64,000 nt of DNA, taken from Aestuariimicrobium kwangyangense DSM 21549 (GTDB lineage Bacteria; Actinomycetota; Actinomycetes; Propionibacteriales; Propionibacteriaceae). Both the position numbers and the translations under genes were made by a program. This document shows, one piece after another, positions 49,878 to 55,372 of this stretch. The first letter of the stretch is position 1; each line of letters begins with the position of its first letter. Location of the stretch: positions 124,001-188,000 of the forward strand of contig NZ_ATXE01000001.1 of the NCBI RefSeq assembly GCF_000421525.1, in the 5' to 3' direction. The notes under the pieces are model-generated. The model ran no database searches and was not told the DNA's origin. It worked only from the letters and a program-made list of their open reading frames with translations.

Positions 49878-50456
49878 TCATTTCGCCTGGTCGAGGGCGC
49901 TCTGCAGGGATTGCAGGTAGGCCTCAGAGGTGTAGGTACCCCCCGAGATCGTGTTCACGGCGGCGGAGTTGGCGGCCAGCACCTCACTGCGGAGCATCGG
50001 CACGGCCTGCTCGTCGATGCGGATGGAGTGGTGGTCGCCATCGGAGGAGACCTGTTCGGACAGGCCCGAGATCCTTCCGCCCGAGACGGTCACGGTGACG
50101 GTGACCGATCCGTACTGGTGGTTGATCGTCTGACCGGTGTAGGTCCCGTCCTTCAGCCCGGACGAGGGAGTGCTCGCCTGACCGCTCGCGGACGGGGCGC
50201 TGGAACTCGGTGCTGCCTGGCTCGTCGTCGACTGGTCCCCCGACTGCCCCGTGGAGCCGGACCTGCCGGTCTGACCCGCCCCCGTCGCGCCGGATCCAGT
50301 GCTGCCGGACTGGGTCGTGGTCGACTGGGTGGTCGACTGGGTGGTCGACGGCTGGCTGGCACCCAGGGTCTGTGAGTTGACGGTGCCGATGTTCCAGCCG
50401 AGCGCGAGAACCCCCGCCCCGGCCGTGACGGCTGCGATGGTTGATCGAGTACTCAC
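49878..50456 (-). CDS. FMN-binding domain protein, secreted or membrane-anchored
   Basis: 192 residues. An N-terminal hydrophobic segment (AAVTAGAGVLALGWNIG) is followed by a Ser/Thr/Gln/Gly linker of about 70 residues (STTQSTTQSTTTQSG), then an FMN_bind domain from about residue 105. TISGGTYTSEAY near the C-terminus is the flavinylation site, with FMN attached to the Thr of SGGT. The GTG overlaps the stop of the ferric-reductase-like gene. The protein would carry electrons outside the membrane. Confidence 0.88.
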   Translation of the reverse strand: MSTRSTIAAVTAGAGVLALGWNIGTVNSQTLGASQPSTTQSTTQSTTTQSGSTGSGATGAGQTGRSGSTGQSGDQSTTSQAAPSSSAPSASGQASTPSSGLKDGTYTGQTINHQYGSVTVTVTVSGGRISGLSEQVSSDGDHHSIRIDEQAVPMLRSEVLAANSAAVNTISGGTYTSEAYLQSLQSALDQAK

Positions 50457-51898
50457 CAGGAGAACCTTTCGTGGTGGATGTGGTCGGCATCGAGGCCTGC
50501 CTGCATGGCTTCCTCGGTCAGGGCGTCGGCCCAGGCCTGGGGTCCGCAGATGTAGAGGTCGGCCTGGGCGATCCAGCCGACGACGTGGGCCAGGTGCAGG
50601 GGACCCGCGCTGGCGGGGGCCCAGCTGCCCCCGCGTGATCCCGTGAGCACCACCAACTGGGCGCCCTTGGCGCGGCACAGCCGGTCGAACTCGGCGAGGT
50701 GGACCAGGTCGTCCTGGCGAGAGCCCCGGGCGATCACGACCGCCCGGCCCGGCTCGACCTCCATGCCCTCCAGCAACGACTTCAGCGGGGCCAGTCCGAC
50801 TCCGGCACCGGCGAGCACGACCGGGACGCGGGTGCGCACGTCCGGCGTGAGCAGCCCGAAGGGTCCCTCGACGCTCACCCTCGTACCCAGGCGAACCGCA
50901 GCCAGGGAGCGAGTGCCGGTACCCAGTCCACGAACGGTGATGCTGAGGCTTCGTCCGTCGGGCGCGGCCGACAGCGAGAACGGGTGGGCGTGCCACCACA
51001 GCCCCGGTGCCCAGAAGCGCCAGCTGAGGAACTGGCCCGGGCGCGCCCCCAGGTGGTCAAGGTTGCGGCCGGTCATGGTGATGCAGACGGAGTCGCGGCT
51101 GACGGGGCGAACCGAGGCGACGCGCAGTCCGTGCTCGAGTGAGCCGACCAACGGACGGACCACCCGGAAGGCCACCAGCGCCGCCGCGGTGGCACTCAGC
51201 AGCAGCACCCAGTAGTCGCGGACGACACCGCCGGCCAACAGTCCGCCCGTCGTGAACTGGTGGGGGATGGCCAGCCCGATGGCGGCGTAGCTGGTGACGT
51301 GGACGACATGCCACACCTCGCGGGGGATGAGGCGCCGGGCGGCCGGGACGGACGTGAGTCCCACCAGTGCGGCGACGCCCGTGCCGACGATGGCCAGCAC
51401 GACGTCGGGGGTGCTCCACAGGTCGGAGATCCCACCCGACCAACTGCCGGCCGTCACCGACCAGGCGGCGGTGAGGAAGAAGATGTGCAGGCCGAGGGTG
51501 ATGAAGGTACTGGGCCCGAGCCGCCTGTGCAGCTCGAGCGCCCCGTCGTGACCGATCGCTCGGTCGACGAACGGGATCCGCGCGGCCAGCAGCAACATCA
51601 GCACCATCAGGGTCATGGCGACCAGACCTGCGATGGCGCCCAGACTGGTGAGCGCCTTGGCGATGCTGCCGAACCCGTAGTCCGATCGTCCGGCCAGGAA
51701 GACAGCCACGGACGCGGCGATCAGCACCCACCCGGTGACGGTGACCAGATCGGCCCTGGCCCGACGCAGCCAGCTGCGCCGGCGGGCACCGGGGAGGCTG
51801 GCCCCGTCTGACCGCCCCCAGGAGGGGCGGGGAGCGGCGGGCACCCGACCCTGACGCGGGGGCGCCTGCTGTGAGGAAGGACGAACGGTGACTGACAT
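50453..51898 (-). CDS. ferric-reductase-like membrane flavocytochrome
   Basis: 481 residues. Six or so helices between residues 50 and 245 with heme-ligand histidines (LHRRLGPSTFITLGLH and WHVVHVTSYAAIGLAIPH), then a ferredoxin-reductase-type FAD domain (HPFSLSAAP) and an NAD(P) domain (GAGVGLAPLKSLLEG, ending YICGPQAW). It moves electrons from NAD(P)H through FAD and two b hemes across the membrane, here presumably to the flavinylated partner. First gene of a three-gene operon with FMN-binding protein and ApbE genes. The start at 51898 has no clear ribosome binding site. Confidence 0.9.
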   Translation of the reverse strand: MSVTVRPSSQQAPPRQGRVPAAPRPSWGRSDGASLPGARRRSWLRRARADLVTVTGWVLIAASVAVFLAGRSDYGFGSIAKALTSLGAIAGLVAMTLMVLMLLLAARIPFVDRAIGHDGALELHRRLGPSTFITLGLHIFFLTAAWSVTAGSWSGGISDLWSTPDVVLAIVGTGVAALVGLTSVPAARRLIPREVWHVVHVTSYAAIGLAIPHQFTTGGLLAGGVVRDYWVLLLSATAAALVAFRVVRPLVGSLEHGLRVASVRPVSRDSVCITMTGRNLDHLGARPGQFLSWRFWAPGLWWHAHPFSLSAAPDGRSLSITVRGLGTGTRSLAAVRLGTRVSVEGPFGLLTPDVRTRVPVVLAGAGVGLAPLKSLLEGMEVEPGRAVVIARGSRQDDLVHLAEFDRLCRAKGAQLVVLTGSRGGSWAPASAGPLHLAHVVGWIAQADLYICGPQAWADALTEEAMQAGLDADHIHHERFSW

Positions 51899-52580
51899 GA
51901 CTCGAGTTGACGCCCGTTGGCTGTGCGCGGGCTGTGTGTCAGCCGTGGGCGGCCTTCGAAGCCTGCGATCGGACGACGCGCAGGTGCGGACGAAGGCAGT
52001 GCGCGATGTCGTGCATCGCCGTCTGGGCGAGCGTCGTCAACGCCTCCGGAGCGATGCGAAGGAAGGGGCTCCCGCCGGGCCCTGAATGGCCTCCACGCCA
52101 TTGGTGGTGCGCGGCCGACAAGGGGTCGTGTCCCCGCCGATCGGAAACATGTCCGCGTAGCGGAAAGTGGTCGCGATGGCAGGCATCAACCGGTTCCCCG
52201 GGTTGCCAGCGGTCACCAGTCGACACCCGGCGCGCGAGCCGCTGTCAGCCCCTCACGGTGCTCGCGGAACCCATCGGGCGGGTCACCGGCGGACATCAGT
52301 ACCCGGGCATGTGGGAACCCGGACCACGAGCATTTGGGGGGATGCGCAAAATGGGGGGATGCGCGCGCTGTGATCCGGGTTCGACAACCATGTTAGGTGA
52401 CACTTGCCCCGTTCGCGAACCCAGTCCCACCACCCCACTCTCTGAAAGAAGATGAAAGAAGTCTCACAAGGGGGGATGTGGTTGTGGAATTGGTCACATT
52501 CGCTTGAATCTCCGTGATCCAGCCGTGATGTGACCGTTTCGGGGCGCGCCGGGGCCGCCGGAGCTGGCATTTCGCAGGGG
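51899..52580. other. 682-bp gene-poor region upstream of flavin operon
   Basis: No frame here looks coding. It has a local inverted pair GGTCACAT/ATGTGACC (52492-52499 and 52528-52535), a direct repeat of TGGGGGGATGCGC separated by a few bases (about 52335-52370), a GGAAACATGTCC stretch near 52141 with repeated CGGAAA, and an A/G-rich patch (about 52440-52480) that is less GC-rich than its surroundings. It may be decayed sequence or a control region. Confidence 0.5.
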
Positions 52581-53231
52581 TCAGGCGCCGAGCCGATAGC
52601 CCAGCCCGCGCTGGGTGAAGATGACTCGCGGACCGTGCGCCTCGAGGCGACGGCGCAGCGACGAGAGGTGCACCTCGACGAGGTTCTGCCCGTACCCCTC
52701 GTATCCCCAGACGGCAGACATCAACTCCCCCTTGGACACCGTCAGCCCCGGGGTGCGTGCCAACCGCCACAAGAGTTTGCGCTCCGTCTCGGTGAGGGCC
52801 ACCTCGGAACCGTCGCGGAGCACCCGGTGGGCACCGGGTTCGATCACGAGGTCGTCGACCGTCACGGCCGATCCCGAGTCCCCGTCCAACAGCTGGGCGA
52901 CTCGCTCCACCATCGCCGCGGCCTCGAGCGAACGAGGCAGGTGAAGGTCTGCTGGCACCCTGGTGGCCCGGGAGCGGCCGGACGTCTTGCCCACGACCAA
53001 CACCCTGACAGCGGTCTCGCCGCGCGCAGCCTTGAGTGCGGCGACGTCCGCCTCGGGCAGCGCGCCTTCGACGACGAGCACCTCGGGACGAAGGGCTTGG
53101 AGGGCCGGCAACAAGGGGCTGCCATCTGCCAGCCCGTGCGCCTGGTGCCCGTGGGAGCGCAGGCTGCTCACGAGGGCGCGACGATTTGCCATCGTGTCCC
53201 CCACCACCAGTACCCGCCCCACGGGGTACAT
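52581..53231 (-). CDS. OmpR-type response regulator with degenerate receiver (orphan)
   Basis: 216 residues. A receiver-like domain (1-120) is followed by an OmpR/PhoB winged helix (125-216: LTETERKLLWRLART, LMSAVWGYEGYGQNLVEVHLSSLRRRLE, TQRGLGYRLGA). The phospho-acceptor position reads VVEGALP, with Glu55 where Asp is expected, and the acidic pair near the N-terminus is Gly11-Asp12. Normal phosphorylation is therefore unlikely. No histidine kinase gene is adjacent. AGGAG 5 nt before the ATG fixes the start. Divergent from the penicillin-binding protein gene. Confidence 0.88.
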   Translation of the reverse strand: MYPVGRVLVVGDTMANRRALVSSLRSHGHQAHGLADGSPLLPALQALRPEVLVVEGALPEADVAALKAARGETAVRVLVVGKTSGRSRATRVPADLHLPRSLEAAAMVERVAQLLDGDSGSAVTVDDLVIEPGAHRVLRDGSEVALTETERKLLWRLARTPGLTVSKGELMSAVWGYEGYGQNLVEVHLSSLRRRLEAHGPRVIFTQRGLGYRLGA

Positions 53232-53410
53232 CTTGCTCCTGTTGGGGCCATCACACCAGTGCCTGTTTTCGTGCTCACTAGGCATGGCGACCCGAACCGG
53301 TGTGACTGGGGCGGCTCCGGCCCCCCTGAGCGGAAATCGATGGCCACAGGGGCCGGGGAGAGTTGTCGGAGGGGGCGGCTATTGTCGACCGCAACGAGAG
53401 GATGCCAGCG

Positions 53411-55372
53411 ATGCCCGACACCCCCCGAGCGCTCGGCGCAGCCCTTCGACCGGCTGTCGTCTGTCTGCTCGCCGTGACAGTCAGCCTGGCTGGGTGCAGC
53501 ACAGTGCCGTCCTTCAAACCGAACCCCAGTCCCACCGCGGCACAGGCGACTCCCTACCAGGGCCCGGTCGCCGATCAGACGGTGACGGCGCTGGTGCAGG
53601 GGCTGGTGGCGGGGAATCTCGACAAGGTGCCGATCATCGGAGACGCCGCCTCTGCCAAGGGTGCGCGCGATGACTACGCGACGATCATGTCGGGCATGGA
53701 CGGGCTGACTCCCTCGATCACCACCACCCCGGTGCGCTACCTGCCGGGTGGGGTCGCCCAGGTCGACCTGAAGCAGAGTTACGCGTTCGAGACCTCGAGT
53801 TGGCAGTTCACGACCACGGCGCGGCTGAACCTCAGCGAGGGCCGCTGGTTCGTCCAGTGGGACCCGAGCATCATCCACAGTGACCTGGACGAGCGGAACC
53901 GCCTGAGGCACACGCGCACCGTGCCGGGGCGCGCAGCCATCGTCGGCGCAGGCAACCAGACCCTGATGGAGGAACGCGAACTCTTCCGGGTCGGCATCGA
54001 CAAGCAGAACCTGCCGGCGTCGCAGTGGGACTCCTCGGCCAAGGCGCTGGCGACCCTCGTCAATGCCAATCCAGGCGAGTTCGCCGCCCGCGTGAAGGCT
54101 GCCGGCGCCAAGGCCTTCGTCGCGGTCGCAACCCTGCGTCAGACCGACATCCCGGCCGGGATGACCGCCATCCCGGGAGCCGCGACCGTGGCGACGACCG
54201 GGGTGGTCGGGCCCAGCCGTACGTTCGCCAGGTCCATCCTGGGTGTGGTCGGCGAGGCCACCCCTGAGCAGATCAAGGCGAGCAAGGGGTTGCTGCAGGT
54301 CGGCGACCTGGTCGGGCAGAGCGGCCTGCAGCGCCGTTATGACAAGCAGTTGCGCGGGTCGGTGGGGCACGTCATCTCGTTGGTGCCCCGCAAGGGGCTG
54401 TCGACCCCGGCCCCGAGTGACAAACCGGACGTCGAGACCGACTTGTTCACCCAGGCGCAGGTGGAAGGGAAACCCTTGCAGGTCTCCCTCGACATCGATA
54501 GGCAGATGAAGGCAGAGGAGGTGCTCGCCACAGTGGCGCCGATCGCCTCGATGGTGGTCATCAAGCCATCGACCGGCGAGATCGTCGCCGCTGCCAACTC
54601 CCCTGCTGCCGGGGAGAACCCGGATGCGACCTTCGGCCGCTATGCCCCCGGCTCCACGTTCAAGGTGGTGACCGCCCTGGCCCTGCTGCGCAAGGGGTAC
54701 AGCGCGGGCACTCCGGTGAACTGCTCCCCGACCGTCACGGTCAACGGTCGCGTCTTCAAGAACTACTCCGACTTCCCCGCCTCCAGGGTGGGCACCATGA
54801 GCCTGCAGGACGCCTTGGCCCTGTCGTGCAACACCGCCATGATCCGTGCCTACACCAAGCTCGGGCCCGGCGACCTGGCCCAGGCCGCCTCGAGTCTGGG
54901 GCTCGGGAAGGACTACGACGCAGGCTTCTCGTCCTTCTTCGGGTCGGTGCCACAGGCGCCGAACCTGACCACCAAGGCGGCCGACATGATCGGCCAGGGA
55001 CAGGTCGAGGCCTCACCGATGGCCATGGCGGGGTTGGCAGCCTCGGTCTCGGCCGGACGGACCACGATCCCGTGGCTGGTGGCGACCAGCAAGCCGCGCC
55101 CCGCCGCTCCTCCGCTCACCAGTGGCGAGGCCGCCCAACTGCGCCAGATGATGCAAGCTGTCGTGTCGAGTGGCACCGCGCACGGCCTGCAGGGTCTGAT
55201 GCTGGGTGCCAAGTCGGGCACGGCGGAGTACGGCTCCGCCAAACCCCCCAGGACACACGCCTGGATGATCGCCTACAACTCCAAGGACCTGGCGATCGCG
55301 GTCATGGTGGCCGACGGGGAGTCGGGTTCGAAGAGTGCGCTCCCCCTGATCAAGGCCTACCTGGCCCCCTGA
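53411..55372 (+). CDS. penicillin-binding protein (transpeptidase) lipoprotein with MecA-like N-domain
   Basis: 653 residues. A signal peptide with lipobox LAGC precedes an NTF2-like MecA_N domain (about 50-150), a dimerisation-type domain and the transpeptidase domain. Catalytic motifs are Ser415-x-x-Lys418 (STFK), Ser472-Cys-Asn474 and Lys601-Ser-Gly. It cross-links peptidoglycan at the outer face of the membrane. GAGAGG precedes an ATG pair; 53411 has the better spacing. The sirtuin gene follows after 25 bp. Confidence 0.92.
   Translation: MPDTPRALGAALRPAVVCLLAVTVSLAGCSTVPSFKPNPSPTAAQATPYQGPVADQTVTALVQGLVAGNLDKVPIIGDAASAKGARDDYATIMSGMDGLTPSITTTPVRYLPGGVAQVDLKQSYAFETSSWQFTTTARLNLSEGRWFVQWDPSIIHSDLDERNRLRHTRTVPGRAAIVGAGNQTLMEERELFRVGIDKQNLPASQWDSSAKALATLVNANPGEFAARVKAAGAKAFVAVATLRQTDIPAGMTAIPGAATVATTGVVGPSRTFARSILGVVGEATPEQIKASKGLLQVGDLVGQSGLQRRYDKQLRGSVGHVISLVPRKGLSTPAPSDKPDVETDLFTQAQVEGKPLQVSLDIDRQMKAEEVLATVAPIASMVVIKPSTGEIVAAANSPAAGENPDATFGRYAPGSTFKVVTALALLRKGYSAGTPVNCSPTVTVNGRVFKNYSDFPASRVGTMSLQDALALSCNTAMIRAYTKLGPGDLAQAASSLGLGKDYDAGFSSFFGSVPQAPNLTTKAADMIGQGQVEASPMAMAGLAASVSAGRTTIPWLVATSKPRPAAPPLTSGEAAQLRQMMQAVVSSGTAHGLQGLMLGAKSGTAEYGSAKPPRTHAWMIAYNSKDLAIAVMVADGESGSKSALPLIKAYLAP

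Follow-up and report, generated by a model that had tools for sequence, protein, structure and literature searches.

Passages of a 2025 minireview state that pseudo-receivers make up several per cent of bacterial receivers, that they have seemingly arisen many times and that how they switch on and off is a major unknown (PMC12632262, in part). Among OmpR/PhoB-type regulators, the kind is established by CosR, HP1043 and ChxR. Specifically, CosR/CosS is the precedent that we found in the literature for kinase loss accompanied by an atypical receiver. CosR of Campylobacter jejuni belongs to the OmpR type. Related species carry the gene for its kinase, cosS, which was not found in C. jejuni, and CosR has been proposed to act independently of phosphorylation (PMC3938529, in part). 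In thermotolerant Campylobacter, the absence of the kinase goes together with replacement of the phospho-accepting Asp, by Asn in C. jejuni (N51) and by Ser in C. coli (PMC3938529, in part). HP1043, also called HsrA, of Helicobacter pylori is likewise an orphan of the OmpR/PhoB type with a highly degenerate receiver and phosphorylation-independent action (PMC5253667, PMC8345958 and PMC3938529, each in part). ChxR of Chlamydia trachomatis is a further atypical OmpR/PhoB regulator (PMC3960148, in part), which we liken to our case by description and not by sequence.

Here we analyze a regulator encoded in a 64,000-nucleotide stretch of the genome of Aestuariimicrobium kwangyangense; we call this whole stretch the window. 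The regulator resembles the above proteins, with differences. While C. jejuni CosR keeps the other conserved aspartates apart from D51 (PMC3938529, in part), the window protein is changed at four of five active-site residues and at the switch Tyr. CosR is essential (PMC3938529, in part) and HP1043 is an essential master regulator (PMC5253667 and PMC8345958, each in part). In a fold comparison, the HP1043 structure 2hqr is 20% identical to the window protein. The host of HP1043 belongs to another phylum than the window organism. By sequence, the closest solved structures are MtrA and PrrA of Mycobacterium tuberculosis (2gwr, E 1.5e-21, and 1ys6, E 1.5e-17), which are also among the top fold matches. 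Both belong to the kinase-paired, phosphorylated regulators. We consider it probable that the window protein is a lineage-specific, kinase-orphaned pseudo-receiver regulator that acts independently of phosphorylation and has kept its DNA-binding half.

The regulator gene and the missing kinase

A preliminary description of the window had given the open reading frame, its coordinates and a VVEGALP motif correctly, and Glu55 indeed replaces the phospho-accepting Asp (Table 1). The frame is intact, and AGGAG at 53236-53240 precedes the ATG at 53231. A scan of 51890-53450 for sigma-70 promoters and terminators found none. The C-terminal part has the Trans_reg_C winged helix of OmpR/PhoB regulators (Pfam PF00486, 68.3 bits against a cut-off of 26.2, E 6e-19), and the match of the receiver to PF00072 is sub-threshold (16.8 bits against 30.2). 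The five-stranded N-terminal receiver fold is found by prediction alone. In the AlphaFold2 model, which was built from an alignment of 6 sequences (mean pLDDT 79, pTM 0.56), there are five receiver strands (residues 6-11, 30-35, 51-55, 76-80 and 96-98) with helices between them, together with a winged helix. The alpha4 region is poorly predicted, and residues 84-87 are below pLDDT 50. Judging from this model, the receiver fold is probably kept. Foldseek matches include PrrA, MtrA, PhoP, CosR and KdpE. The protein scores 87.2 bits with the MtrA model NF040689, far under the curated cut-off of 300, and a scan of genome contigs with the protein gave seven loci, all of them distant regulators (25-38% identity in the best segment).

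Table 1. Positions of the regulator, its parts and neighbouring features in the window
Feature	Position	Strand	Remarks
Orphan OmpR/PhoB-type response regulator	52581..53231	-	216 aa, ATG start, stop included
Degenerate receiver (pseudo-receiver), residues 6-117	52881..53216	-	PF00072 sub-threshold, few invariant columns kept, predicted fold
Glu55 codon GAA, phospho-acceptor position	53067..53069	-	alignment column 57, Asp in 23/23 others
Winged-helix DNA-binding domain, residues 122-216	52584..52868	-	PF00486 over residues 141-214
Divergent penicillin-binding lipoprotein gene, start not fixed	53393..55372	+	PBP_dimer, Transpeptidase, MecA_N just under cut-off
Ferric-reductase-like flavin/NAD oxidoreductase, first gene of flavin group	50453..51898	-	domain match; relative near regulator in G021
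Frameshifted, truncated 5' remnant of class I fumarate hydratase, about codons 6-65	51987..52165	-	tblastn with G021 fumarase

A local double frameshift was considered as the source of the odd receiver. It was ruled out, as there was no match of note in another frame: among 35 HSPs of 24 regulators on the regulator stretch, 25 share the frame of the gene and 9 lie on the opposite strand, and the single one in another forward frame covers 13 residues at E 1.2.

To collect orthologues, we searched 198 genomes of the family with a profile, scoring up to 15 candidates per genome in a list that was ranked by E-value and did not extend to the weakest matches. Among the matches listed, 20 places exceed 300 bits, including the window's own (305.9), and the next scores 226, which leaves a clear gap. 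The orthologue set consists of all 20 places and the best-scoring place in each of four genomes from the order (G045, G033, G039 and G042), giving 24 regulators, or 23 without the window's; other matches in the order-level search were left out of the set. The genus of the window organism is represented by one other genome, G001. We identify the window gene as the orthologue of the response regulator from a kinase-regulator pair of this order.

In all 23 other orthologues, a histidine kinase gene lies 3' of the regulator gene and on its strand, a count that includes a kinase running off the contig end (G140) and one in two pieces (G139); none is beside the window gene. There is no match to the HATPase domain PF02518 in the window (C1:124001-188000), as the 15 matches genome-wide are all outside it. 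A kinase orthologue was not found in the window genome, where the best match reaches 34% over part of the protein. The regulator thus has no obviously associated sensor kinase, and its earlier designation as an orphan is correct. These comparisons show that both the phospho-switch and the kinase were lost specifically in this lineage. A possible kinase remnant between the regulator and the flavin genes was rejected, with two kinase queries matching only at E 0.067 or worse. The two-piece kinase of G139 (L106, 1653-2959) may be misassembled, or another lineage may be at the beginning of losing its kinase.

Divergence of the receiver and of the DNA-binding domain

The canonical active site consists of two acids, the phospho-accepting Asp, Thr/Ser and Lys; one of these five residues is left in the window receiver and four are changed. 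The Asp, the first acid and the Lys are invariant in the 23 other orthologues, of which 22 have Thr and one (G001) has Ser. In the window protein, the Glu-Asp acidic pair has become Gly-Asp, the conserved Thr/Ser falls in a 3-residue gap, Lys-Pro-Phe is replaced by Arg-Ser-Leu (residues 100-102) and the switch Tyr is His97. There are gaps in both the receiver and the linker.

The preliminary description had reported one Asp of the acidic pair as missing. One acid is indeed gone, but this is the Glu; Asp12 is kept. The Thr/Ser gap, Arg-Ser-Leu and His97 had not been mentioned. It had also proposed to see whether Glu55 is fixed among homologues, and had named a normal Asp at this position as refuting its reading, since this would imply a lineage-specific loss of function. 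Glu55 is not fixed, as all 23 others have Asp. The phospho-switch and the kinase have been lost; the protein, however, probably has not, given that its DNA-binding domain is conserved. A separate observation is that the window receiver has Leu at K+2, which is among the residues shifting CheY towards active forms (PMC12632262, in part) and is suggestive at most.

The changes are unevenly distributed over the protein. Columns that are invariant in the 23 others are kept by the window regulator at 12 of 32 positions in the receiver and linker, as against 19 of 20 in the DNA-binding domain (Fisher p 3e-5). At receiver columns that are at least 90% conserved in the rest, it keeps 16 of 46, while the 23 others, left out one at a time, retain 42-46 of 46-48. 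Identity between the window protein and G001 is 35% in the receiver (40/115) and 62% in the DNA-binding domain (58/93), and the corresponding values for G001 and G021, which belongs to another genus, are 68% and 67%. On a fixed tree, the receiver branch is 3.76 for the window versus 0.34 for its sister, or 11 times as long, where 3.76 is near saturation and rough; the DNA-binding branch is 0.64 versus 0.29 (2.2 times). Citrate synthase has no such acceleration, in that the enzymes of the window organism and of its congener G001 are each identical to that of G021 at 271 of 429 positions. Judged by this one gene, the acceleration seen in the receiver does not extend to the whole lineage.

Constraint on the receiver is much weakened, with codon positions 1 and 2 almost as different from G001 as position 3 (0.49/0.43/0.61 for positions 1/2/3, compared with 0.29/0.15/0.55 between G001 and G021). 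For the DNA-binding domain, the differences are 0.32/0.24/0.48, compared with 0.28/0.18/0.47 for the kinase-bearing pair G001 and G021. The receiver has GC2 of 0.51 and GC3 of 0.83, as in coding sequence. In its core, 23 of 30 VILMF columns stay VILMF (29 of 37 with a wider hydrophobic set). Core columns that have changed are still VILMF in 10 of 17 cases, as against 13 of 85 non-core positions (p 4e-4), and the wider set gives 15 of 23 against 27 of 79 (p 0.015). By these measures, the receiver sequence is not random.

These observations bear on the possibility of decay, i.e., that the gene had no role after the kinase was lost and is becoming a pseudogene, of which the slower part alone still looks conserved. 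The very long receiver branch, the gaps in receiver and linker and the weakened codon-position constraint are all consistent with decay. Moreover, a genuine pseudogene (the fumarase remnant described below) adjoins the regulator, and our operator search gave none for the window regulator. However, the frame is intact and a ribosome-binding site is present, most of the receiver core is still hydrophobic, and a gene in decay would be expected to erode throughout, whereas here the DNA-binding domain is spared, both in its invariant columns and in its codon-position differences, which are close to those of the kinase-bearing pair. We regard decay as quite unlikely. The data favour a protein that would have been kept for DNA binding, with a receiver that was relaxed or rebuilt, over a pseudogene.

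Neighbouring genes and candidate operators

The divergent gene had been described as encoding a penicillin-binding lipoprotein, and this holds: the product matches PBP_dimer and Transpeptidase and, weakly, MecA_N, and is 50% identical to the neighbour of the G001 orthologue. The window order is this gene, the regulator, flavin genes (ferric-reductase-like, FMN-binding and ApbE) and citrate synthase. In G001, the lipoprotein gene and the regulator are followed by the kinase, one further ORF and citrate synthase. In G021, the order is citrate synthase, a ferric-reductase-like gene, an intact class I fumarase, the kinase and the regulator, with other ORFs between.

In the window, the fumarase remnant sits between the ferric-reductase-like gene and the regulator. 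It matches the G021 enzyme (tblastn) in two frames, at 78% over 32 amino acids (25/32) and at 53% over 32 amino acids (17/32); the two pieces overlap by four query residues, and 42 of 64 aligned positions match. As a query for an intact class I fumarase, the G021 enzyme gave only the remnant pieces in the window genome and nothing in G001, and there is no fumarase within the 19.9 kb fetched around the regulator of G126, from the genus of G021. An ancestral gene order with fumarase would therefore rest on few genomes. On the regulator side of its truncation, the fumarase retains its start, and some 400 bases in which no kinase sequence is detectable lie between this start and the regulator. The parsimonious history would hence be at least two deletions, which removed the kinase and the greater part of the fumarase. 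The flavin operon probably became the regulator's neighbour via loss of the genes between.

The fumarase truncation looks recent, because the remnant still matches the G021 enzyme as well as it does. The remnant, which does not code, has diverged far less than the receiver, which is translated. We infer that the kinase was lost before the fumarase was truncated, or that the receiver did not change neutrally.

The second of these options leads to another explanation, in which the receiver was repurposed to sense something else, such as a small molecule or protein partner, so that its fast change would be adaptation and not relaxation. That an out-of-frame remnant is still so well matched suggests little neutral time since the truncation, and roughly 3.76 substitutions per site would be hard to reach by drift alone in that time. 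However, the kinase loss may long predate the truncation, and the changes hit catalytic and switch columns, as relaxation predicts. Repurposing is, in our estimation, very unlikely.

Upstream of the regulators, we found direct repeats of CTGAAG/CTCAAG with an 11-base period (L046, L048, L098, L099, L100, L101, L103, L110 and L049-L052). The pattern CTSAAG-N5-CTSAAG, with at most one mismatch, occurs within 200 bases 5' of the regulator in 12 of 24 upstream regions, compared with a mean of 0.07 and a maximum of 2 regions in Markov-shuffled controls, a comparison that is somewhat overstated in that the motif was picked after viewing the same sequences. The repeats are a possible operator of this two-component system. 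Neither the window nor 11 kinase-bearing members, including G001, have the pattern upstream of the regulator; because these 11 members also lack it, its absence is not linked to kinase loss. With up to two mismatches, the whole window has 8 matches where 11.6 are expected, which is no more than chance. With up to one mismatch, the window genome has 14 matches versus 38 in a reversed control, and one exact match (G000:C1:654633). G021 has 38 versus 30 in the control, the other three genomes scanned are below their controls, and no regulon is inferred. We found no paper on a repeat of this type. CutRS is a less likely name for this system, given that the published operator of Streptomyces CutR, TAWATAAA (PMC12802291, in part), differs from the CTSAAG repeat, a weak argument that compares the sites by description.

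The region between the regulator and the penicillin-binding gene has a palindrome, GTTGTCGTCGACAAC, in G001 (L044), and its window counterpart has two copies of TTGTCG. As an operator common to both intergenic regions, TTGTCG was rejected, in that 164 of 2000 shuffles give a doubly repeated shared 6-mer, which is not significant. The penicillin-binding gene is a possible target of the regulator, a guess from adjacency. Across the 24 places, such a gene directly adjoins the regulator in only two genomes, both of this genus. At the other 22 places, no penicillin-binding protein match is beside the regulator in the stretches fetched, which for G143 extend 251 bases upstream only. G015 has two relatives of this protein within the same 20 kb, the nearer one about 3 kb from the kinase gene.

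Mode of action and significance

According to our preferred explanation, the kinase gene, which is directly downstream in relatives, was lost in the window lineage. As the comparisons show, the receiver lost its phosphorylation chemistry and switch residues, with the frame remaining open and the fold probably kept, and the DNA-binding domain stayed conserved. Because the receiver chemistry is lost and the DNA-binding domain is conserved, it is most likely that operators are bound without phosphorylation. Output would then be set by the abundance of the protein (synthesis and turnover) or by contacts of the altered receiver, and the regulator may act at the divergent penicillin-binding gene and at its own promoter.

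The preliminary description had suggested that the protein is constitutively active or controlled by expression or dimerisation, on the grounds that Glu can mimic phosphorylation. With both the site and the kinase gone, control without phosphorylation is the best reading, but mimicry by Glu55 is poorly supported. Glu is the most frequent residue in receivers that lack the Asp, it partially activates many regulators and may act through binding the conserved Thr and Lys (PMC12632262, in part), and the Leu at K+2 is of a CheY-activating type; however, because these proposed partners are gone (Thr in the gap, Lys replaced by Arg), and with the Tyr of Y-T coupling replaced by His and the alpha4 region eroded, it is highly improbable that Glu55 serves as an inbuilt phosphomimic by which a receiver normal in other respects would be held in the active dimer.

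It is important to emphasize that no new mechanism is shown here, and that regulators of this kind are already known. For the phosphorylation-independent regulator that we propose, the value of the locus lies in comparison. The congener G001 keeps the kinase, the receiver and the neighbouring gene, which allows a direct before-and-after comparison of proteins in which change is concentrated in one domain. It is conceivable, though we think it unlikely, that a canonical regulator has here been caught converting to a pseudo-receiver via kinase loss, its receiver rebuilt under selection as a sensor that does not use phosphorylation, with the DNA-binding half and perhaps the targets unchanged. The locus is a usable test case for how pseudo-receivers are controlled.
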